Shown piece by piece: positions 2,227 to 45,940 of a DNA stretch of 55,344 bases. The stretch is from NCBI GenBank assembly GCA_024403995.1, contig JAKSQT010000008.1:1-55344 (forward strand), read 5' to 3'. Both the position numbers and the translations under genes were made by a program. This DNA is from Ruminococcus sp. (GTDB lineage: Bacteria; Bacillota; Clostridia; Oscillospirales; Ruminococcaceae). The notes below the pieces were generated by a model that made no database searches, was not told the DNA's origin, and saw only the letters and a list, made by a program, of their open reading frames with translations. The number at the start of each line of letters is the position of its first letter. Within the stretch, counting starts at the first letter, position 1.

Positions 2227-4584
2227 TTATTTTGAACTGTCGATAACAAGCTGACGGAGAATTATCTCATCAAAAACATCAATTTCGCCGTCATTATTGA
2301 AGTCAAACTGTTCGGCAGTCTCCTTTGTGTCAAACGGTGCAGTTCCGAGGAGCATTTTGCGGAGACGGACAAGCTGTGAGACTTTATACACCTTTGCCGG
2401 TTTTGTGCCGTCAGGCTCAGTACCGCCGATAAGCTTTCCGTCAGCATAAACGCATACATTGTCGCAGCGCTTTGCAAGTTCAACGCCGCCTACGATAGTA
2501 TCATAATCCTCTGTTATTTCTTCAATTCCCTGTCTGCTCCAGTCATTTGTCGGATCCCAGTTGTCACCGTAGTACATACCGATTATGAACTGATATTTTT
2601 TGTTGGAGTTGGCAATTGCATAGTCAGGCCACGAAATTTCCACATAGTAGATATTGTCCTTATACTGCTTTGGCTGAGAGAGAACAGCGGCTTTGCCTGT
2701 GACCTCAGTTTCGACCTGATCGTAGGTTTTCTGGAGAACGAAGCTTGACGGTATATCAGTATTATTCTCAAACTCGGAAATATCAAAAAAGTAGCGGATA
2801 GAGAGGTCGTTATGCGGTTCAAGAGAATCAGTATTTACAAAGAATGTCAGCTTTGTAACGCCTGCGCCTGTATTTTCGGGAGAATCCGAACAGTAGCCTG
2901 CCGCCCAGAAATCGTCACCTGAGAAAAGCTGGGAGTCGTCTTCTTTTTCGGCAGGAGGGAAATCCTCAGTCGGCTTCATCGTCTCGTCACCGCAGAAAAG
3001 ATACAGACCTGCGGCTGCACCGACGATAGCTGCGTTATAGTCAATGGTTACTTCATTGTATATCCAGTCGTTTGTGGTATCATGGTGGTCGTCATGCTCG
3101 TCAGGGCCGCCTGCGAGAGCACCATAGAGAACGTGCTTATGTTCGCCCTTGTCCTCAGCCATTGTAAGTCCTGATGCGGCACGGTGATGAGGGTATTTTA
3201 CCGAATTTTCGCCGTATCCGACAACATAGTTCCTGCCGAGCGGGTTGTCTCCGATGATATACTCCATCTGACCGAGTGCCCAGTTAGAGAAGGTGTAGTC
3301 CTCATGGTCAGGGTTATACAGGTCTTTGCCTTTCTGATATTTGTCATATACAAGAGCGCAGAACTGAGCGGCTGTGTTGTAACGTGCGCTTCCCCATGTG
3401 TCGAGCCAGAAATAACCGGCAGGAGTGATCGTACCGATATCGCCCTTCATCCATGCGTTGACAGCCTTAGCCTCCATTTTCCAGAAGTCTATCTCCTCAT
3501 AGGGATTTCTGCCTGCGGCTTCACGGTATTCCTCGCAGACATCGGGATAAATGTCCTGAATTCGTCCGAGAAGGATAGAAACGCCGTTCCACATATCGTT
3601 CCAGCAGAGTACATATCCCGGAGGTGCATAGTAATCTACATATTCTATGCATTCTTCAAGATAGCGGTGGTCTTTGGTTATGAGATAAAGCCAGCAAGCG
3701 GCGAATGAGAAATCGTCCTCCCATTTGCTTGATGTATAGTAGCTGTCAGGGCCGTCTTTTCCGAGACCGACTTTTTTTTCATTTTTTGCGGCAAAATCAA
3801 AGAGCGCCTTTGAGTAGTCAAGGCATTTTTCGGCATATTCGGGGTCTGTTTCGAGGAAGTTGTAATAGTTTATGGCAAGTGCGGCGGCGCTGAGAGATAC
3901 GTCGTCGGTCGTAGGAATTTCGGATGTTGCAAAGTATGCAGGACGAGCCATTGCGTCTATTTCAGGAGCCTGCCAGTAGCTGTGGTCAATATCGCCGTCA
4001 CCGACTTCATAGCAGAAAGCAACTACATCGCCGTTTTTGTCACGGAAAGTGCTTCTCATGAAATAGTCACTGAAATAGCGGCATATCGTTTCGGCATGAG
4101 CATCCTGACCTGTTTTTTCATAGGCTTCACGGAATTCATAGTAGCCCCATGACACGACAGATGCGGCATATGCTTCAGGCAGACCGAATTTAACGTGGTC
4201 GCCTGCGTCATGGAAACCGCCTGAAACATCGACAAAACCGTCACCGTCGGGGTCGAGGATATCGCTGTACTGTTTTATGAATGAATCTGAAAGGTTTGTG
4301 CCGACTTCGTTTTCATCCATAGGCTGGAGCGGAACTTTTGAGTCATATACGTGGCAGTCACCACGCCATGAGAGCAGATTGTTCTCGGAAACGCCTGTGC
4401 CGCACATATTTGCGTCATAGAAAAACATGGTATACTGGAGCAGTTTAGCCCAGTTGTTTTCGGTCTCCTCATAGTCTGCGGCATCAGGAGTAGCTTCACA
4501 GAATGCACTTAATGACGGGGAAACGGCTGAGAATGCAGTGATTACCGCAGCAGCGGCAGAGATGCATTTTTTTATTTTATGCAT
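2227..4584 (-). CDS. GH9 endoglucanase with CBM3 and atypical dockerin
   Basis: A secreted 785-residue cellulase. A signal peptide (MHKIKKCISAAAAVITAFSA) is followed by a GH9 catalytic domain at about 40-550 with the catalytic Asp pair in GGFHDAGDHVKFGLP, the His in HHRAASG and the acid Glu in EVTIDYNAA. A family 3 carbohydrate-binding module (about 560-720; IRYFFDISE, NDWSRQG) follows, the arrangement of processive GH9-CBM3c endoglucanases. The C-terminal dockerin (about 728-785) is odd: the second calcium loop DFNNDGEIDVFD is intact but the first repeat begins AKVYKVSQLVRLRK and lacks the DxNxDG loop. ATG at 4584 has AAAGGA upstream; an upstream in-frame start at 4659 overlaps the promoter and is rejected. 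It substitutes for no other gene here; two other GH9 enzymes lie at 36-42 kb. Confidence 0.9.
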   Translation of the reverse strand: MHKIKKCISAAAAVITAFSAVSPSLSAFCEATPDAADYEETENNWAKLLQYTMFFYDANMCGTGVSENNLLSWRGDCHVYDSKVPLQPMDENEVGTNLSDSFIKQYSDILDPDGDGFVDVSGGFHDAGDHVKFGLPEAYAASVVSWGYYEFREAYEKTGQDAHAETICRYFSDYFMRSTFRDKNGDVVAFCYEVGDGDIDHSYWQAPEIDAMARPAYFATSEIPTTDDVSLSAAALAINYYNFLETDPEYAEKCLDYSKALFDFAAKNEKKVGLGKDGPDSYYTSSKWEDDFSFAACWLYLITKDHRYLEECIEYVDYYAPPGYVLCWNDMWNGVSILLGRIQDIYPDVCEEYREAAGRNPYEEIDFWKMEAKAVNAWMKGDIGTITPAGYFWLDTWGSARYNTAAQFCALVYDKYQKGKDLYNPDHEDYTFSNWALGQMEYIIGDNPLGRNYVVGYGENSVKYPHHRAASGLTMAEDKGEHKHVLYGALAGGPDEHDDHHDTTNDWIYNEVTIDYNAAIVGAAAGLYLFCGDETMKPTEDFPPAEKEDDSQLFSGDDFWAAGYCSDSPENTGAGVTKLTFFVNTDSLEPHNDLSIRYFFDISEFENNTDIPSSFVLQKTYDQVETEVTGKAAVLSQPKQYKDNIYYVEISWPDYAIANSNKKYQFIIGMYYGDNWDPTNDWSRQGIEEITEDYDTIVGGVELAKRCDNVCVYADGKLIGGTEPDGTKPAKVYKVSQLVRLRKMLLGTAPFDTKETAEQFDFNNDGEIDVFDEIILRQLVIDSSK

Positions 4585-4629
4585 AAAATCATTCCTTTCT
4601 GAATTGATCAAGTATAGTCTGATAAATAT

Positions 4630-4659
4630 ATTATATCCTGTCAGAACATCCGCTGTCAA
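4630..4659 (-). promoter_or_regulatory. Sigma-A promoter of GH9
   Basis: TTGACA (4654-4659) and TATAAT (4630-4635) with an 18-bp spacer, about 45 bp before the GH9 start. Confidence 0.6.
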
Positions 4660-5564: not shown

Positions 5565-9842
<4,278 letters not shown>

Positions 9843-11382: not shown

Positions 11383-11410
11383 AAAATGCACCAAATCTTC
11401 ATTTTGTGAG

Positions 11411-11439
11411 TTGTCTTTCTGAGAAAAATACTATATAAT
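11411..11439 (+). promoter_or_regulatory. Promoter of GH43
   Basis: TTGTCT (11411-11416), 17-bp spacer, TATAAT (11434-11439), about 47 bp before ATG. No terminator is obvious between the MATE stop and this promoter. Confidence 0.5.
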
Positions 11440-11486: not shown

Positions 11487-13871
11487 ATGGAGAAACTCAA
11501 ACGTTTTACTGCGGGAGCTGTGATTTCCGCAATGGTACTGGCTAATTCGGGAGCAGTACTTCTCTCAGATGCAAAAAATATTTTAACTATGTCAGCCGCC
11601 GCCGCAACGACAGTGAATAACCCTGTCATCTGGGCGGACGTTCCCGATGTTGACATTATCCGTGTCGGAGATACCTATTATACGGTCAGTACGACCATGT
11701 TTTTCAGCCCCGGTGCGCCTATAATGAAGTCGAAAGACCTTGTTTCGTGGGAAATATGCAATTATGTCTATGACACTCTTGCTGACGGTGATGTTCAGAC
11801 GCTGAAAAACGATAAGCATGACTATTCTCATGGTCAGTGGGCAGCAAGTCTGCGCTATCATGACGGAAAATTCTATGTTTTCTTCGGCAGTTACGGTACG
11901 AATAAGTCATATATCTACTCAACGGACGATATTGAAAACGGAAAATGGTCATGCAGTGCGGTCAACGGAATGTACCATGATGCATCGATCCTTTTCGATG
12001 ATGACGGCAGAAATTACCTTGTCTACGGCGGAAACGGCGAAATAAAAATCAAGGAATTCAATGAGCAGATGACTGATTTCAAGTGGGGCGGCGTGGACAA
12101 GACTTTGTTCAAGACAGGTCTGGACGGACTCGCAGGCGAAGGCTCTCACGTCCAGAAAATAGGCGATTATTACTATGTATTCGTCATTGCATGGCCGTCA
12201 GGTCACCCCAGAATCGAGCTTTGCTACAGGAGCAAGAGTCTGCTTGGAAATTATGAGGGCAAGACTGTGCTCGAATCAGGCGTTGGCTCATACGGAAGCG
12301 GCGTTGCACAGGGCGGAATCGTTGATACTCCCGACGGAAAATGGTATGGTCTGCTGTTTCAGGATCACGGTTCTGTCGGCAGAATACCTGTGCTCGTGCC
12401 TGTAACATGGCAGAATGACTGGCCTGTCATGGGCGTAAACGGCAAAGCTCCCGTTTCGTTTACGGTTGACGGGGATGCAACAGGTGCAGTAGTTGCCCGT
12501 GATGACGATTTCAGCTATACCGAAAATAAGCTGAAGCTTGAATGGCAGTGGAATCACAATCCTGACAATAAATCATGGTCTGTTACAGAGCGTGAAGGTT
12601 GGCTGAGACTGCATAACAATAACATGGCAACAAATATCATGAATGCCCGAAATACGCTGACTATGCGTACCGTAGGCCCGGCGTGCAGCAGTGTGATAAA
12701 GCTTGATACAAAGGGTATGAAGGCAGGAGATCACGCCGGTCTTTCTGCATTTCAGTTCAACTACGGAAATATCGGCGTTTATGTAACGGACAGCGGTCAG
12801 AAAAAGGTGTATATGTCGAAAAACGGCGGATATTCCGGAAATGCGAATATCAAGGACAGCTACGACAAAAAAGTTGCTGAGGAAAATCTTGACGGCGATA
12901 CGGTATATCTGAAAGCCGATTTCAAGTTCAGCGACGTTAAATCCGATATGAGTGCCTCAAATGATATAGATAAGGTCAATTTCTATTATTCGTATGACGG
13001 CACAAACTGGAAAAAGCTTGGCGATGAGATAAAAATGACCTATGACCTGAAAGTTTTCACAGGTTACAGAAGTGCGATATACAGCTATCCTACCAAGTCA
13101 ACAGGAGGTTATGCCGATATCGACAGCTTTGATTTTGAGTGTACGCCGTGGAATTATGTTGAAATTATCGAGCCTGACGAGAACGGATATTATTTCCGCA
13201 GTTCATTTGAGGGCAGTACTGATAAATGGGAGGGCAGAGGCAGCGCAAAGATCACATCTACCGATAAAACCGCATCAGACGGCAGTTCTTCTGCATATGT
13301 TTCCAATCGTGAGGCTTCGTGGAACGGTATCACACAGCATCTCAATTCTGCATTCAAGGGCGGTGAGTCCTATAGTTTCAGCGCAGATGTAATGTATGAC
13401 GAGGGCGAAACAGACTCACAGACGTTCTTCCTGACTCTCCAGTATGAGGACAGTACAGGCGAAACTCATTATGATAAAGTAGATACAGCAGTCGTTACCA
13501 AGGGCAAGTGGCTGCAATTGTCGGACGAAAGTTTCAAAATTCCTGATGGGGCGGTAAATCTCTGGCTGTATGTCGAGACTGAGGAAGGCTCAGATTCGTT
13601 CTATGTTGACAATCTCATCGGTGCGGTTGACGGAGTGAAGATAACAAGCGCAGGCAGTGAACCGGAAATAAATGTCACACCAGGAGACATAAATTCCGAC
13701 GGCGCTGTTGACGTGTTTGACCTTATCATGGCACGAAGCGGACTTATCGGCGGCTTTGACGATAAGACGGCTGAAAAAGCGGCTGATGTTGATAATAGCG
13801 GCAAGGTCGAAATAAATGATCTTGTACTCATCCAGTCATATTTGCTCGGCAAAACGGCTATTTCACAATAA
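11487..13871 (+). CDS. GH43 xylosidase/arabinofuranosidase with CBM22 and dockerin
   Basis: A secreted 794-residue enzyme. After a signal peptide (KRFTAGAVISAMVLANSGAV) comes a five-bladed GH43 domain with the three carboxylates in WADVPDVDII (about 52), MYHDASILFDDD (about 164) and GLAGEGSH (about 218). A beta-sandwich C-terminal GH43 domain follows (about 330-555), then a CBM22-like xylan-binding domain (about 565-715; SFEGSTDKWEGRG, FYVDNLIGA) and a two-repeat dockerin (GDINSDGAVDVFD, ADVDNSGKVEINDL). It most likely removes xylose or arabinose from xylan; the exact GH43 activity cannot be assigned by eye. A strong AGGAGG ribosome site precedes the ATG. The dockerin is the short type shared with the GH2, not the long type of the enzymes at 36-42 kb. 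Confidence 0.88.
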   Translation: MEKLKRFTAGAVISAMVLANSGAVLLSDAKNILTMSAAAATTVNNPVIWADVPDVDIIRVGDTYYTVSTTMFFSPGAPIMKSKDLVSWEICNYVYDTLADGDVQTLKNDKHDYSHGQWAASLRYHDGKFYVFFGSYGTNKSYIYSTDDIENGKWSCSAVNGMYHDASILFDDDGRNYLVYGGNGEIKIKEFNEQMTDFKWGGVDKTLFKTGLDGLAGEGSHVQKIGDYYYVFVIAWPSGHPRIELCYRSKSLLGNYEGKTVLESGVGSYGSGVAQGGIVDTPDGKWYGLLFQDHGSVGRIPVLVPVTWQNDWPVMGVNGKAPVSFTVDGDATGAVVARDDDFSYTENKLKLEWQWNHNPDNKSWSVTEREGWLRLHNNNMATNIMNARNTLTMRTVGPACSSVIKLDTKGMKAGDHAGLSAFQFNYGNIGVYVTDSGQKKVYMSKNGGYSGNANIKDSYDKKVAEENLDGDTVYLKADFKFSDVKSDMSASNDIDKVNFYYSYDGTNWKKLGDEIKMTYDLKVFTGYRSAIYSYPTKSTGGYADIDSFDFECTPWNYVEIIEPDENGYYFRSSFEGSTDKWEGRGSAKITSTDKTASDGSSSAYVSNREASWNGITQHLNSAFKGGESYSFSADVMYDEGETDSQTFFLTLQYEDSTGETHYDKVDTAVVTKGKWLQLSDESFKIPDGAVNLWLYVETEEGSDSFYVDNLIGAVDGVKITSAGSEPEINVTPGDINSDGAVDVFDLIMARSGLIGGFDDKTAEKAADVDNSGKVEINDLVLIQSYLLGKTAISQ

Positions 13872-21513: not shown

Positions 21514-22221
21514 CTATTTTTTCTTGAATTTACAGGTCTTGTCCTTGCAGTTCTGGCATTTCAGAATCTGATTCGAGCCTTCCCAGAACCTTTCGGGGTG
21601 CTTTGAATAGGCAAGTTCCCAGCGTATGAGCACGATGAGCGAAGTGAAGAAAAGACTCCATGAGAAAAAATTCTTGATGAAAAGCATAGGCGTGAACATC
21701 ATGAAATGTCCCCAGTCATAGATGCGGCAGTTTACACAGCATTTGTTTTTCATGAGTTTCGAGCTGAACGGGCAGTAGAACAGAATGCAGATATAATCGC
21801 AAAGAAAATAGAAGCCTGAAATAATGAGCAGTTCAGCCTCGCCGATAACGCTTAAAAGATAGAGCAGTGCCCATATACTATTAAAAATGAGCCATACCAG
21901 CATTACTTGCCATGCCTTGCGGTTTTGTTCCTGAACATATTTCAGCAGTTCATATTCCGAATAATCCTTGACGGGTACATATTTCCGCTTCTTCGACTTG
22001 AGAAGTGCCATTGAACGGAGATTTGTCGGGAAGATATGTGATATCATGATTATCATGAACATCGCCCATATTATGTGGAGAAGGTTTATGCCGTGGAAAA
22101 CAGGTTTTGTCAGAAATTCCGTCATTTCGTTTTTTCCCGTGAAGTAAAGGAATAACAGTGCTCCAAGTGCGCCGACTCTGAAAACAAGCTTAACAATGTA
22201 ATATTTCAGCTTTTTTGTCAC
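21514..22221 (-). CDS. Polytopic membrane protein with Cys clusters
   Basis: 235 residues, family not recognised. About five hydrophobic helices are visible (near 12-28, 44-64, 103-125, 129-150 and 172-200). Two cytosolic-looking cysteine clusters, KNKCCVNCRIYDWGHFMM in the middle and KCQNCKDKTCKFKKK at the extreme C-terminus, could bind a metal or iron-sulfur cluster. The conserved look of WGHFMMFTP between the clusters suggests a functional core. The start is GTG at 22221, five bases after GGAGGCGG. It has its own promoter and no operon partner. Confidence 0.75.
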   Translation of the reverse strand: MTKKLKYYIVKLVFRVGALGALLFLYFTGKNEMTEFLTKPVFHGINLLHIIWAMFMIIMISHIFPTNLRSMALLKSKKRKYVPVKDYSEYELLKYVQEQNRKAWQVMLVWLIFNSIWALLYLLSVIGEAELLIISGFYFLCDYICILFYCPFSSKLMKNKCCVNCRIYDWGHFMMFTPMLFIKNFFSWSLFFTSLIVLIRWELAYSKHPERFWEGSNQILKCQNCKDKTCKFKKK

Positions 22222-22250
22222 TGAAACCGCCTCCTATGCAAGTATATCAA

Positions 22251-22279
22251 ATTATACCATATTTGATATTAAAAGTCAA
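22251..22279 (-). promoter_or_regulatory. Promoter of the Cys-cluster membrane protein
   Basis: TTGACT (22274-22279), 17-bp spacer, TATAAT (22251-22256), 30 bp before the GTG start. Confidence 0.6.
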
Positions 22280-22331
22280 AGGATTTACCGTGATATCAAG
22301 TAAAATTTATATTTTACCGATGCAGGTAAAA

Positions 22332-22522
22332 ATAAAAAACGCACCCGTGATGAGTACGTTTTTTCTGATATGCCCTCTTACAAAGCACAGGATAGCATGA
22401 ATTATTACATTTCCGCTGTAAGCTATCCTATCACAGCGGAAATTCGTCCGTTACGCCATGAACAGTGTGCAGATATTCATGGCGGCACGGGAAAGCGTAA
22501 ATGAGAGGGAAACTTCATTACA
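22332..22522 (-). ncRNA. Candidate structured ncRNA with pseudoknot
   Basis: An RNA gene of about 190 nt on the minus strand, with promoter 22529-22557 and terminator 22338-22360. Read 5' to 3' on the transcript: P1 strand CCCTCT (22504-22509), a CCGT/ACGG helix enclosing a 9-bp hairpin TTCATGGCG..CGCCATGAA shape (arms 22454-22462 and 22476-22484), then an 11-bp helix (22433-22443 with 22409-22419) interleaved with an 8-bp helix (22422-22429 with 22389-22396), then the closing P1 strand (22373-22378). The interleaved pair is an H-type pseudoknot with connecting loops of 3, 2 and 12 nt; this order suits the minus strand (short loop over the deep groove, long loop over the shallow groove) and not the plus strand. 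No ORF with a ribosome site lies in it. I do not recognise it as 6S, SRP, tmRNA or RNase P. Confidence 0.65.
22338..22360 (-). terminator. Terminator of the structured RNA
   Basis: AACGTACTC..GGGTGCGTT hairpin with two wobbles, followed by TTTTATTTTT on the minus strand; T-runs flank both sides so it may also stop plus-strand transcripts. Confidence 0.7.
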
Positions 22523-22528
22523 AGACAT

Positions 22529-22557
22529 ATTATAAACTAAAAATGTCACAAATTCAA
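22529..22557 (-). promoter_or_regulatory. Promoter of the structured RNA
   Basis: TTGAAT (22552-22557), 17-bp spacer, TATAAT (22529-22534), placing the RNA start near 22522, about 13 nt before the first helix strand. Confidence 0.6.
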
Positions 22558-22607
22558 CCCATAAAATACATAATAAGTGGACAAAATAACGTTTTTTTCA
22601 TATATAA

Positions 22608-22937
22608 GGCACCTCTAAAAAAACTTCTGAGAAAAAGCAGCTATGTACAGCATATGCTGTGTCAACTCCTCTTGTAGTGCGAAAGCACGCCTTCGATGGC
22701 TTCCCTTGCATCTACTGCATCTATCTGCTTTTTTAGGCAATACCGCACAGAGCTGGCGGTGCAGATACGCAGTCAGATTTTTCGTCAGATTGTATGAAAA
22801 CGACGCCGCTGGGCTGACGCCCAGCAAGGAGTTTTCGTGCAAAATGACGGAAAATATGCAAGTAGATGCGCTGCCAAGCCGTCAGGCGGGCTTTGTGCGG
22901 TGTTGCCTTTACTCAAAACAAGTTTTTAGAGGTGCCC
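22608..22937. repeat. Family B copy B3, interrupted by element C
   Basis: Ends GGCACCTCTAAAAAAAC and TTTTTAGAGGTGCCC. The left part matches B4 (45783-45940), including GTGCGAAAGCAC; after CTATCTGCTTTTTT the match is broken by a 175-bp insertion and resumes with TTACTCAAAAC. It lies upstream of the traX-like gene but outside its promoter. Confidence 0.75.
22735..22909. mobile_element. Element C: MITE-like insertion in B3
   Basis: A 175-bp element bounded by 14-bp terminal inverted repeats AGGCAATACCGCAC and GTGCGGTGTTGCCT (one mismatch). Comparison with uninterrupted copy B4 shows it was inserted as a unit. Inside are GC-rich palindromes such as CTGGGCTGACGCCCAG. There is no transposase ORF; movement would need one elsewhere. 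Related ends occur at 2186-2219, 52142-52149 and perhaps 47109. Confidence 0.65.
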
Positions 22938-38849: not shown

Positions 38850-41800
38850 ATGCACAAGAAAAGTAAAATTGCAAAGACACTTGGTGCAAGCCTTTTAGCT
38901 GCATCAATGATTGCACCTACAGTTGCTGCTATCGCTCCAATGAGTGCTAACGCAGCTTGTCAGGTTCTTGGCGAAACAAGCTTTGATTACAAGGCACTGC
39001 CTTGGCATACTTGTGAGTCAAGCCCTGCAAAACAGGATTTTGATATCAGTAACGGCGCATTCCACGTTGAGATCATCAACGCACAGGGCGCTGACGGCGA
39101 AAAGTGGGACCTTCAGGTAAGACACAGAAACCTTAACTTCAAGAAGGGTCATACATATGAAGTAAGCTTCAAGGTTAAGTCAAACAGAGCCGGTATGGAA
39201 CTCTGCTCAAAGATCGGTAACATCAAGGGCGACGAAGAGTATTTCGTACTCAGCGGTTCAGAAATGCAGATGGGTCCTCACATGGGCGGTCAGTGGGGCA
39301 AGGCTCTCTCACTTACAACAGATTACCAGACTGTAAAGGGCACATTCAAGCCTACACAGGACATCGAAGCTGCTGAGTGGGCATTCCACTATGCACAGGG
39401 TACTAAGTACGAAGGTAACGGCAAAGCCGGCGACGAACTCTGGTTCGACGATATGTCCATCGTTTGTCAGGATTGTCCTGAAACATGGTCAGAAGGCACC
39501 TGCGGCGTTGACCCTGACAACCATTTTGGTGCTGTAAGCCGTGAATACAGTAATAGTGCTGATCCTAAGATGAAGGACGGCAAAACACTCGTTAACTATA
39601 TCTCTGTAAACCAGGTTGGTTACTATCCAAACCTCCAGAAGATCGCTGTTCTCGGTGATAACGCAGGCGATATCGTTTACGGTGCTCAGAGCATTTCACT
39701 TTCAAAGAGCTCATATGACTTTGACGTTTGTGATGCTTCTTCAGGCGCTTCTGTATACTCAGGTACTTCAGGTTCTACATTCAAGGATCCTGATTCAGGT
39801 GATACAGTATGCAAGCTCGATTTCACAGAATTCAATAAGCCGGGCAGATACTACATCAAGGTCGGCGACTGGAGATCTATGGAATTCAACATTGGCGACA
39901 ACATCTACACAGATGACAGCCACAATATGCTTACTAACGCAATCAACTACTTCTATCAGAACCGTTCAGGTCTTGATATTGAAGCTAAATATATCACTTC
40001 AGGTGATACAGGTACTCTTGCTCATAAGGGCGGTCATAAGACAGATAAAGCTGCTGTTCAGAAGATCTGGAAGAACGAGTACGCAAGCAAAGATGAAGCT
40101 ACAAGTACATACGCTTCTTCAACAATAACAGCTAACAAGGGCTGGTACGATGCCGGTGACCACGGTAAATACGTTGTTAACGGCGGTATCGCAGTATGGA
40201 CTCTCCAGAATATGTATGAGAGATCTCTCATCGTTGATGGCGGCGACAAGTTTGCTGATAATTCAGGTACAGTTGTAGTTCCTGAAACAGGCAACAAGAT
40301 TCCTGACGTAATCGATGAGTGTCTCTATGAAATGGACTTCATGACACAGATGGTTGTTGATTCAAGCGAGCCAACATGGGGCAAGTATGCAGGTATGGTT
40401 TACCACAAGCTCCACGACCACAAGTGGACAGGTCTTGCTACAAAGCCGGACGGCTATGAGGAAGAATGGGGTACAACACGTATCGTTAAGCCTCCAACGT
40501 TCGCTGCAACTCTGAACTACGCTGCTTGTGCTGCTCAGACTGCACGTCTCTTAGAGCCATATGATTCAACAAAGGCTAAGTTCTTCCTTGAGGAAGCTAA
40601 GACTTCATATCAGGCTTACAAGGACAACTACTATGAAGCTGACCACAGCAAGAAAACTCATCCTGACCTCAAGTGCGATTGTGAGGCAGAAGAAATCAAC
40701 GAGAAGTCACTCTATGCTCCAATGTGGCAGGCAAAGGGCGGCGGACCTTACGGCGATAACGAGGTTAAGGACGACGGTTACTGGGCAGCTTGCGAAATCT
40801 TCGTAACTGCTAAGGCACTCGGCGATTCTGACGCTGACAAGTTCTTCGAGGAACTCTCTGCTTATAAGGATGCATTCAAGGTAACAACAAGAATCACCGG
40901 CGGTGAAAACAAGGATGGTTCATTTACCACATTTAACTGGGGTAATACAGCATCTGCCGGTTCTATGACACTCCTTATGCACCAGGATCTCCTTTCTGAA
41001 GATCAGGCTAAGACACTTCAGGATTCTGTTGTTGAAGCTGCTGATAACTACATCGCAGAGGAAACAAAGCAGGGTTATGGTATTCCTTACAAGTATGACG
41101 GTCAGGGATACAACGATCCTAACAACCTCAACCCAAGCATCATAATCAATGGTTATGAGTGGGGTTCAAACTCAATGGTTATCAACAATGCTATCGTTAT
41201 GGCTTACGCTTACGATATCACTGGTGATGTTAAGTACATGAACGGTGTTACAACCGCTATGGACTACCTCCTTGGTACAAACCCACTTTCATTCTCATTC
41301 GTAACTGGTTACGGTACATACCACGAGCAGAAGCCTCACCACAGATATTGGTCCAACGAGCTTGATAAGACTCTCCCAATGGCTCCTGATGGTGTTCTTT
41401 CAGGTGGTCCTAACGCAGGTCTCCAGGATCCATATGTACGTGCTCTCGGTTTCGTTTCTGGTGATGCCAGCAACCCGTCACAGAGATGCTTCGTTGACTC
41501 AATCGAAGCTTGGTCAACAAACGAAGTTACAATCAACTGGAATGCTCCTCTTGCTTGGATCGTTTCATTCCTTCAGGATGAAGCTGCACAGGCTCCAGCA
41601 GCTGCAAAGGGCGACAAGTTCGGCGGCAAAAAGACTGTTACAGATCCTGTAACTACAACAACTCAGGCTCCTGTTACAACAACTACATCTAAGGAAACAA
41701 CATCTGTTGTTACAACAACAGTTAAGAATCCTTCAGCAGTTAAGGCTGACCTTTACGGTGATGCTAACTGCGACGGCAAGGTTAACATGGGTGACGTTGT

Positions 41801-41987
41801 TCTTATCATGCAGTCACAGGCTAACCCTGACAAGTTCGGTCTTAACGGTTCTGATAAGTCACACATTACAGCACAGGGTAATGCTAATGCAGACGTTTAC
41901 GAGAATGGTTCAGGTATCACAAACAACGATGCTCTGTCAGTTCAGAAGTATCTCCTTGAACTCATCAAGTCACTTCCAGAGTCATAA
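38850..41987 (+). CDS. CBM4-Ig-GH9 cellulase (CbhA-like) with long dockerin
   Basis: 1045 residues, secreted. Signal peptide (SKIAKTLGASLLAASMIAP), a CBM4-like cellulose-binding domain (about 40-215; ETSFDYKALPWHTC, ELWFDDMSIVC), the Ig-like domain typical of this GH9 subgroup (about 245-350; NYISVNQVGYYPN), then the GH9 domain (about 355-905) with Asp residues in GWYDAGDHGKYVVNGG, His in KPHHRYWSN and Glu in STNEVTINWNAPLAW. A short Thr-rich linker and a long dockerin (GDANCDGKVNMGDVVLIMQ) end it. This architecture is that of CbhA/CelK cellobiohydrolases. Codon use is strongly biased (AAG, CTC, GTT, AAC), as in the S1 gene, which implies very high expression. AGGGAGGG precedes the ATG. It is likely a dominant exo-acting cellulase. 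Confidence 0.93.
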   Translation: MHKKSKIAKTLGASLLAASMIAPTVAAIAPMSANAACQVLGETSFDYKALPWHTCESSPAKQDFDISNGAFHVEIINAQGADGEKWDLQVRHRNLNFKKGHTYEVSFKVKSNRAGMELCSKIGNIKGDEEYFVLSGSEMQMGPHMGGQWGKALSLTTDYQTVKGTFKPTQDIEAAEWAFHYAQGTKYEGNGKAGDELWFDDMSIVCQDCPETWSEGTCGVDPDNHFGAVSREYSNSADPKMKDGKTLVNYISVNQVGYYPNLQKIAVLGDNAGDIVYGAQSISLSKSSYDFDVCDASSGASVYSGTSGSTFKDPDSGDTVCKLDFTEFNKPGRYYIKVGDWRSMEFNIGDNIYTDDSHNMLTNAINYFYQNRSGLDIEAKYITSGDTGTLAHKGGHKTDKAAVQKIWKNEYASKDEATSTYASSTITANKGWYDAGDHGKYVVNGGIAVWTLQNMYERSLIVDGGDKFADNSGTVVVPETGNKIPDVIDECLYEMDFMTQMVVDSSEPTWGKYAGMVYHKLHDHKWTGLATKPDGYEEEWGTTRIVKPPTFAATLNYAACAAQTARLLEPYDSTKAKFFLEEAKTSYQAYKDNYYEADHSKKTHPDLKCDCEAEEINEKSLYAPMWQAKGGGPYGDNEVKDDGYWAACEIFVTAKALGDSDADKFFEELSAYKDAFKVTTRITGGENKDGSFTTFNWGNTASAGSMTLLMHQDLLSEDQAKTLQDSVVEAADNYIAEETKQGYGIPYKYDGQGYNDPNNLNPSIIINGYEWGSNSMVINNAIVMAYAYDITGDVKYMNGVTTAMDYLLGTNPLSFSFVTGYGTYHEQKPHHRYWSNELDKTLPMAPDGVLSGGPNAGLQDPYVRALGFVSGDASNPSQRCFVDSIEAWSTNEVTINWNAPLAWIVSFLQDEAAQAPAAAKGDKFGGKKTVTDPVTTTTQAPVTTTTSKETTSVVTTTVKNPSAVKADLYGDANCDGKVNMGDVVLIMQSQANPDKFGLNGSDKSHITAQGNANADVYENGSGITNNDALSVQKYLLELIKSLPES

Positions 41988-45782: not shown

Positions 45783-45940
45783 GGGCACCTCTAAAAACCC
45801 CTTCTGAGAAAAAGCAGCTATGCACAGCATCTGCTGTGTCAAGCCCTCTCGGAGTGCGAAAGCACGCCTTCAAGGGCTTTCCTTGTATCTGCTGCACCTA
45901 TCTGCTTTTTCTTACTCAAAACGGGTTTTTAGAGGTGCCC
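45783..45940. repeat. Family B inverted repeat, copy B4 (long form)
   Basis: 158 bp from GGGCACCTCTAAAAACC to GGGTTTTTAGAGGTGCCC. Contains an extra arm with GTGCGAAAGCAC absent from the 100-bp copies but present in B3. Lies in the leader of the chromate genes. Confidence 0.8.

Follow-up and report, generated by a model that had tools for sequence, protein, structure and literature searches.

A probable new RNA family in Ruminococcus with stand-alone pseudoknotted genes and modules behind cellulosomal hemicellulase genes

CsrB-type decoy RNAs titrate CsrA and carry many GGA hairpins. Hfq-dependent sRNAs derived from 3'UTRs are modules at mRNA 3' ends with a terminator, and they also occur as stand-alone genes. 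In the cip-cel cellulosome operon of Ruminiclostridium cellulolyticum, mRNA processing is controlled by stem-loops, according to an excerpt of PMC10311766. The raiA RNA (RF03072) is stand-alone, ~200 nt long and pseudoknotted (excerpt of PMC11751092).

Here we describe an RNA locus in a window of 55,344 nucleotides, the whole stretch of Ruminococcus sp. DNA analysed (contig JAKSQT010000008.1), and its relatives. With 3'UTR-derived Hfq-type sRNAs the new family has in common the 3'-end module with terminator and the additional stand-alone genes; unlike them, it reuses the same structured module behind different enzyme genes. With CsrB/RsmY-type decoys it may share a logic, that of a stand-alone RNA mimicking the mRNA sites of a shared regulator. 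The proposed likeness is one of logic and not of a CsrA link, and there is one CUGCAC hairpin where CsrB has many GGA hairpins. The size, pseudoknot and stand-alone gene recall raiA. No raiA covariance-model match was obtained, however, and by inspection of the raiA excerpt the pseudoknot topology seems to differ. Unlike raiA, the family has several modules per genome and minimal forms in 3'UTRs, and was found in one genus only. The nearest prior art among the literature matches listed is cip-cel stem-loop processing, which likewise links RNA structures to clostridial cellulosome mRNAs (selective RNA processing and stabilization; PMC4423207 and an excerpt of PMC10311766). The cip-cel stem-loops sit between genes of one operon, whereas in the new family a loop and tail conserved in sequence lie at the ends of transcripts, genus-wide.

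The window RNA gene and known RNA families

The initial annotation had described a free-standing pseudoknotted RNA gene of ~190 nt with a TTGAAT-17-TATAAT promoter and a terminator, and had proposed a trans-acting or protein-binding role. The gene and its signals were all found on the minus strand, and the putative role is plausible. The features of the locus were as follows (loci of relatives are given below as L numbers).

22330..22522, minus strand: structured RNA gene, ~190 nt, 5' end placed from the -10 box
22529..22579, minus strand: promoter with the motif CAC-N14-RTGRGTTG-N17-TATAAT (pattern search)
22454..22484, minus strand: P1 hairpin, 11 pairs (22484-22474/22464-22454), conserved loop CTGCAC at 22472-22467
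22409..22443, minus strand: pseudoknot stem 1, 11 bp, ATTTCCGCTGT 22443-22433 / ACAGCGGAAAT 22419-22409
22389..22429, minus strand: pseudoknot stem 2, 8 bp, AGGATAGC 22429-22422 / GCTATCCT 22396-22389
22364..22389, minus strand: P3 region and conserved TGTAAGAGGGCATATCAGA (family form UUGUAAGGGGACAAAUCAGA)
22334..22364, minus strand: terminator-like hairpin P4 (13 pairs including G-U, 5-nt loop), then a U-rich tail
22373..22509, minus strand: tentative long-range closing helix, CCCTCT 22509-22504 / AGAGGG 22378-22373
21514..22221, minus strand: downstream gene, hydrophobic by eye, adjoining the RNA in L063 and L064 too

The promoter boxes are TTGAAT at 22557-22552 (-35) and TATAAT at 22534-22529 (-10), separated by a 17-nt spacer. 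The two stems interleave as an H-type pseudoknot with loops of 3 nt (22432-22430), 2 nt (22421-22420) and 12 nt (22408-22397), exactly as the annotation had read them. P3 offers an optional 5-bp pairing (22389-22385/22373-22369); the annotation had counted at least five helices. The tail reads ATATCAGA and is of the AAAUCAGA type. The CCCTCT strand of the closing helix was kept in L062-L064 and L066-L068 and was missing, by eye, from the other members viewed. The minimum free energy of the window RNA was -64.9 kcal/mol, compared with -43.7 ± 4.5 kcal/mol for 200 shuffled sequences, none of which folded as well (z -4.7). A short open reading frame over P1 was rejected as coding because the stem and the frame vary among relatives (by eye). 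Immediately upstream of the RNA gene lies a MITE-like element with GGCACCTCTAAAA terminal inverted repeats (22608-22936), and further copies or half copies are found in the window at 45784-45939 and 20230.

The RNA had been annotated as having no obvious family, and the suggested Rfam search agreed. At the gathering score, Rfam 15 gave one tRNA in the whole window and nothing at the RNA locus; at E ≤ 10, the region 22200-22700 matched only TtnuCD20, SraG and sR4, all far below gathering. Scans of 41 further loci (members at 36 of these; E ≤ 1 or gathering score) gave no credible match at the module; sub-threshold Thr_leader and MicC matches overlay terminator hairpins in L195 and L196. The 6S RNA model (RF00013) matched neither the locus nor the own genome and was positive in 5 of 14 controls. 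Multiple GGA-loop hairpins of the CsrB type were not present in the window RNA, which by eye has one AGGA, in the pseudoknot hairpin loop. The plasmid collection held no match to it. No prior description was found among the literature matches listed (open literature, titles and abstract starts), and the word Ruminococc does not occur in the main text of four candidate-RNA surveys (PMC2864571, PMC8040213, PMC8632094 and PMC11109978).

Relatives, conserved structure and range

Matches to the window RNA at E ≤ 1 were found by blastn in 113 of 125 genomes of the genus, many of them by chance. The clear relatives comprised a window-like short type (~190 nt by eye) and a long type (~260 nt by eye). 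Common to both were the CUGCAC loop, a stretch resembling UGUAAGRGRRCRNAUCAG, a terminator-like hairpin and a pseudoknot formed by GGAUAGC and GCUAUCC. Model R1, built on the 3' part, matched 42/125 genomes at E ≤ 0.01, and its weak matches exposed members without the pseudoknot. Model R2, which covers the 3' module only and contains no P1, matched 110/125 genomes at E ≤ 0.05 and 74/125 at E ≤ 0.001, many genomes having several module matches. CTGCAC was present in the hit or in the 190 nt upstream for 38 of 40 second-tier R2 hits, compared with 153 of 2000 windows drawn at random from those loci; the 40 hits are not independent events, since 17 of them are orthologues at one locus (which also supplied two R2 seeds, L101 and L131).

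A third model, R3, was made from an alignment (A3) of 30 pseudoknot-free members. Because A3 excludes the pseudoknot types and the window, the recovery of the window RNA by R3 (22327-22486; E 2.7e-5 in the genome search and 5.7e-7 in the window alone) is an independent membership test. The family core consists of the hairpin P1 with the loop CUGCAC on a freely varying stem, P3 in the form UUGU[AAGGGG]ACAA, AAAUCAGA and the terminator-like hairpin. The window RNA has the CUGCAC hairpin with covarying stem, P3, the AAAUCAGA-type tail and the terminator hairpin, and it very probably belongs to a new RNA family. By sequence comparison, the pseudoknot is an extra domain and the window RNA one subtype of a larger family. 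The short core motif G[AG]CA[AG]ATC[AG]GA occurred 59 times in members and 4 times elsewhere in 1.39 million strand-bases, one of the four being a further member. Exact CTGCAC was present in 85 of 89 loci; by eye, L062, L181 and L183 have one-letter variants, and L098 is two letters off. In its own genome, the window RNA is a single copy by blastn, and at least one further family member is present (L210, G000:C118:16096-16181; E 9.8e-4). A second module copy was detected by the core motif on one contig of G049 (L200, minus strand, ~1184).

Several candidates were dropped as chance hits: L016, L017, L025-L027, L080 and L100; L217 and further weak R2 matches that lacked CTGCAC; and a hit within a GH2 gene of the window (9600-9425, E 0.027).

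Conservation of the fold was evident from several comparisons. CTGCAC lay in a hairpin loop with a median stem score of 17.0 in 85 loci, compared with 7.8 at 538 control CTGCAC sites (Mann-Whitney p ~1e-37); one of the 85, L184, was kept as a member although the CTGCAC scored there sits in the terminator loop. In A3, both sides had changed at 9/9 pairs of P1 and 10/10 pairs of P4, and neither any of 500 shuffles nor any slid version reached the observed values for the whole structure. Owing to its varying register, P1 was paired in only 60% of cells. Little covariation accompanied the conservation of P3 (UUGU/ACAA). Alternatively, its GGGAC strand may pair with the 3' tail (helix 73% paired, both-side change at 1/7 pairs); the two pairings may compete, and a switch between two folds is possible.

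The initial annotation had called for a search for compensatory changes in both pseudoknot helices. A simple rule recognised stem 1 (22409-22443) in 35 of 38 pseudoknot members, with 31 distinct sequences among them, and no stem in the other 3. Stem 2 (22389-22429) was nearly invariant, as loop and downstream partner were conserved in 38 members relative to 106 control GGATAGC sites (p ~2e-13). L077 and L089 have G-U variants of stem 2, and in L164 and L166 the pairing is shifted (CGGATA/TATCCG).

Members were spread across the genus Ruminococcus. In the GTDB species collection, a search by exact pattern matched 27 stretches, 26 titled Ruminococcus and one 'Bacillota bacterium'; among the Ruminococcus titles were R. 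flavefaciens FD-1, 007c, ND2009, MA2007, Y1, YAD2003, YL228, SAb67, XPD3002 and ATCC 19208. Across the taxonomic family, R1 matched only the own genome among 247. R3 matched 7 of the 247. Besides the own genome these were three from its genus and three from other genera; the hits in the latter were marginal (E 0.003-0.006), lacked CTGCAC and the core, and read as chance terminators. Across the phylum, R3 matched only the own genome among 348. These large searches used strict filters and scored few candidates per genome, so that weak members elsewhere could escape. As far as they reach, no convincing R3 member lies beyond the genus and the RNA family is restricted to Ruminococcus.

Genomic settings and a shared promoter motif

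A census of 89 loci was taken for same-strand coding sequences of at least 250 aa ending no more than 130 nt before P1 (for L183, before the module). By position, the order stop codon, module, terminator that marks 3'UTR-derived sRNAs was found at 29 loci, one of which, L065, has the promoter motif between gene and RNA. The window member has its own promoter and is not of this type. CAZyme or dockerin genes precede 26 of the 29, as judged by Pfam in 15 of the 17 scanned and by membership of the same BLAST clusters in 11 more; one of the 29, L179, lies outside the Pfam scan. The Pfam exceptions were L065, behind a lactate dehydrogenase, and L218, whose preceding gene has no Pfam family but does have dockerin-like repeats by eye. 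The domains found were GH10, GH11, GH26, GH30, GH43, arabinofuranosidase, PL11, esterases, CBM_4_9, CBM_6, CBM_35 and Dockerin_1, and the enzymes include xylanases. Orthology lowers the number of independent events, with at least 8 enzyme architectures among the tagged genes. The 130-nt cut-off was chosen after the data had been seen; at 150 nt, 17 potassium-channel loci join and the proportion becomes 26/46, and in the channel loci viewed a consensus-like promoter sits between gene and module (by eye). Dockerins are numerous in 125/125 genomes of the genus (up to about 47 scored in each), with or without a module hit, so that their presence offers no correlation test. This 3'UTR setting had been overlooked by the initial annotation, as had the multi-copy family with its minimal form.

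Other members had other neighbours. Nineteen lie behind a potassium-channel gene (by BLAST cluster, with Pfam on L163 only). These Ion_trans/TrkA_C loci (L101, L131, L163, L165, L167-L169, L172, L174-L178, L181, L182, L186, L191, L194 and L198) hold an orthologous stand-alone minimal member, with the leader AATAATTGGGTTATTATTTGAGCG conserved in most. Further non-CAZyme members are found upstream of rRNA, tRNA-Leu or hpt (by eye) and behind lactate dehydrogenase or glycerate kinase. In L069-L073 and L075, an rRNA-type promoter follows the pseudoknot RNA after a few hundred bases; the contigs often end there, and a 16S rRNA start is legible by eye downstream in L071 and L072. In the long-type loci L081-L096, the RNA often lies several hundred bases behind an ECF sigma factor and a Thr-rich, membrane-protein-like gene (anti-sigma-like by eye), and a DNA polymerase IV-like gene (by eye) follows on the opposite strand. 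Judging from these loci, the core has two uses: it forms a 3'UTR module, for the most part after genes for secreted cellulosomal hemicellulases or pectinases, and it occurs in stand-alone RNA genes. The window itself encodes further plant-fibre enzymes: GH9 with CBM_3 (2227-4659), a GH2 beta-galactosidase with dockerin (5565-9833) and GH9 with CBM_4_9 and dockerin (38850-41987).

The initial annotation had also missed a promoter motif that the RNA has in common with a GH43-dockerin gene of the same window:

11389..11439, plus strand: second window copy of the promoter motif, before the GH43-dockerin gene, its sole other use in the window
11487..13871, plus strand: cellulosomal beta-xylosidase-type gene with the Pfam domains GH43, GH43_C2, CBM_4_9 and Dockerin_1

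The motif, searched as CAC-N14-RTGRGTTG-N17-22-TA...T within 450 nt upstream of the module, was found at 16 of the 89 loci, and a further 6 sites occurred in 1.39 million strand-bases. Its carriers were all 16 short-type stand-alone pseudoknot members, the window included, out of 38 pseudoknot members; over the same 450 nt it was absent from the 16 long-type and 6 gene-end pseudoknot members. Over all loci (2.57 million strand-bases, overlaps included) there were 22 distinct sites: 16 before RNA genes of the family, 2 before GH43-dockerin genes and 4 just behind GH10/GH43-type genes. In L079, the order is motif, GH43-GH43_C2-CBM-dockerin enzyme, motif, RNA. The other 3'UTR-tagged enzyme genes in the loci had no such motif, so the proposed co-regulation is confined to the GH43 genes. 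The four sites behind GH10/GH43-type genes seem to serve as promoters of another conserved small RNA, with the sequence CGAAATCTTCTTAATCATCCCTCATTATGCGGC and a terminator-like hairpin (L197:3119-3350, L199:3076-3300, L188 on the minus strand from 3068, and L219:1625-1850). On one side of it are the GH10/GH43 3'UTR modules and on the other an HMGL-like gene, apparently with a promoter of its own.

A putative shared binding factor and competing explanations

The same modules, not complementary ones, occur in mRNAs and in stand-alone RNAs, and the simplest reading would be one common binding partner. A conserved loop sequence on an arbitrary stem likewise suggests a shared partner, with the stand-alone RNA as a decoy. 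Loop and tail would be recognised by a dedicated RNA-binding factor, either a protein or a protein together with a processing nuclease, which would govern the stability or translation of the tagged hemicellulase mRNAs. The window RNA, if transcribed, might imitate the tag in a stable form, shielded by its pseudoknot, and by titrating the factor might alter enzyme output. We regard this competition for a factor as the likeliest mechanism considered, though tentative and at less than even odds; against it stand the members not tied to CAZymes and the presence of the promoter motif before only two CAZyme genes.

It is somewhat unlikely, in our judgement, that the stand-alone genes and 3'UTR fragments are instead sibling trans-acting sRNAs that base-pair with mRNAs via shared seeds, these being the CUGCAC loop, the purine-rich UAAGGGG or a C-rich stretch, CCCUCUC, close to the window RNA's 5' end. 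A terminator hairpin with a U-rich tail is typical of sRNAs, and the module ends in a terminator-like hairpin with a mostly U-rich tail; many genomes also have several module hits. The CCCUCUC stretch, found in the window, L062-L064 and L066-L068, resembles anti-Shine-Dalgarno seeds, but it is not universal and can pair internally with AGAGGG in the window RNA. The preservation of stems by covariation suits a structure-specific binder rather than such seeds. An mRNA 3'-end element that shields hemicellulase transcripts against decay or flags a site for an endonuclease, with the stand-alone copies as independent stable RNAs or by-products, would fit the 26 CAZyme-type loci in which the module comes after the stop codon and before the terminator, and has a precedent in the stem-loop-controlled processing of cip-cel cellulosome mRNA (excerpt of PMC10311766). 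We consider it unlikely, as it leaves unexplained the conserved CUGCAC loop and AAAUCAGA tail, the stand-alone genes with their own promoters and the added pseudoknot.

The remaining explanations have far less in their favour. A leader or attenuator of the gene at 21514-22221 is suggested by the common strand and by the same neighbour in the window, L063 and L064. This is very improbable, because the RNA's terminator and the gene's own promoter (TTGACT-17-TATAAT, 22279-22251) intervene, in line with the annotated lack of an obvious cis target, and because the genes beside other members are unrelated and lie on either strand. The annotation's idea of a divergent raiA-type RNA drew on the similar size, the pseudoknot and the stand-alone gene in a clostridial lineage (raiA traits from the excerpt of PMC11751092). 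It can hardly be upheld: raiA (RF03072) gave no match at the locus even at E ≤ 10, none in the own genome or the relatives' loci and 0/147 in genomes of the order, although the 14 control genomes were silent too and the order may yet contain raiA. In that excerpt, pk-1 of raiA joins the loop of P3 to the junction between P5 and P6, whereas here a hairpin loop pairs with the strand just 3' of its own stem. The annotation is supported on the gene, the pseudoknot and the lack of a known family, and not supported on raiA. Equally hard to credit is a misreading of chance terminators or of a mobile repeat as a gene family. Weak R2 hits are indeed often ordinary terminators (10 of 15 inspected with E ≥ 0.001, L221 and L229 excluded, lacked CTGCAC), but the covariation, hairpin, core-motif and CTGCAC tests all oppose this reading, the stems differ freely, unlike those of a recent repeat, and the window RNA is single-copy in its genome by blastn.

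The novelty lies in an RNA family without a curated match; its mechanism may prove to be of a known sort. Extended from the shared factor to the whole genus, our reading becomes more doubtful though still worth considering: an RNA regulon over the Ruminococcus cellulosome, in which a factor would read the 3' CUGCAC hairpin and AAAUCAGA, and stand-alone pseudoknotted copies, one class of them expressed from a GH43-type promoter, would set the level of free factor. Histone and iron-responsive stem-loops are eukaryotic 3'UTR hairpin regulons, and the proposed regulon, if true, would be a bacterial parallel to them. Ruminococci are major plant cell wall degraders in the rumen and gut, and to our knowledge little has been established about the post-transcriptional setting of their cellulosome make-up. 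A genus-wide module provides handles on this question, namely a loop and tail to mutate, a bait for the partner and a promoter motif with which to find the regulator. The relatives at the ends of fibre-enzyme genes, mainly for hemicellulose, suggest that an RNA-based layer of control may lie over fibre digestion in these bacteria.
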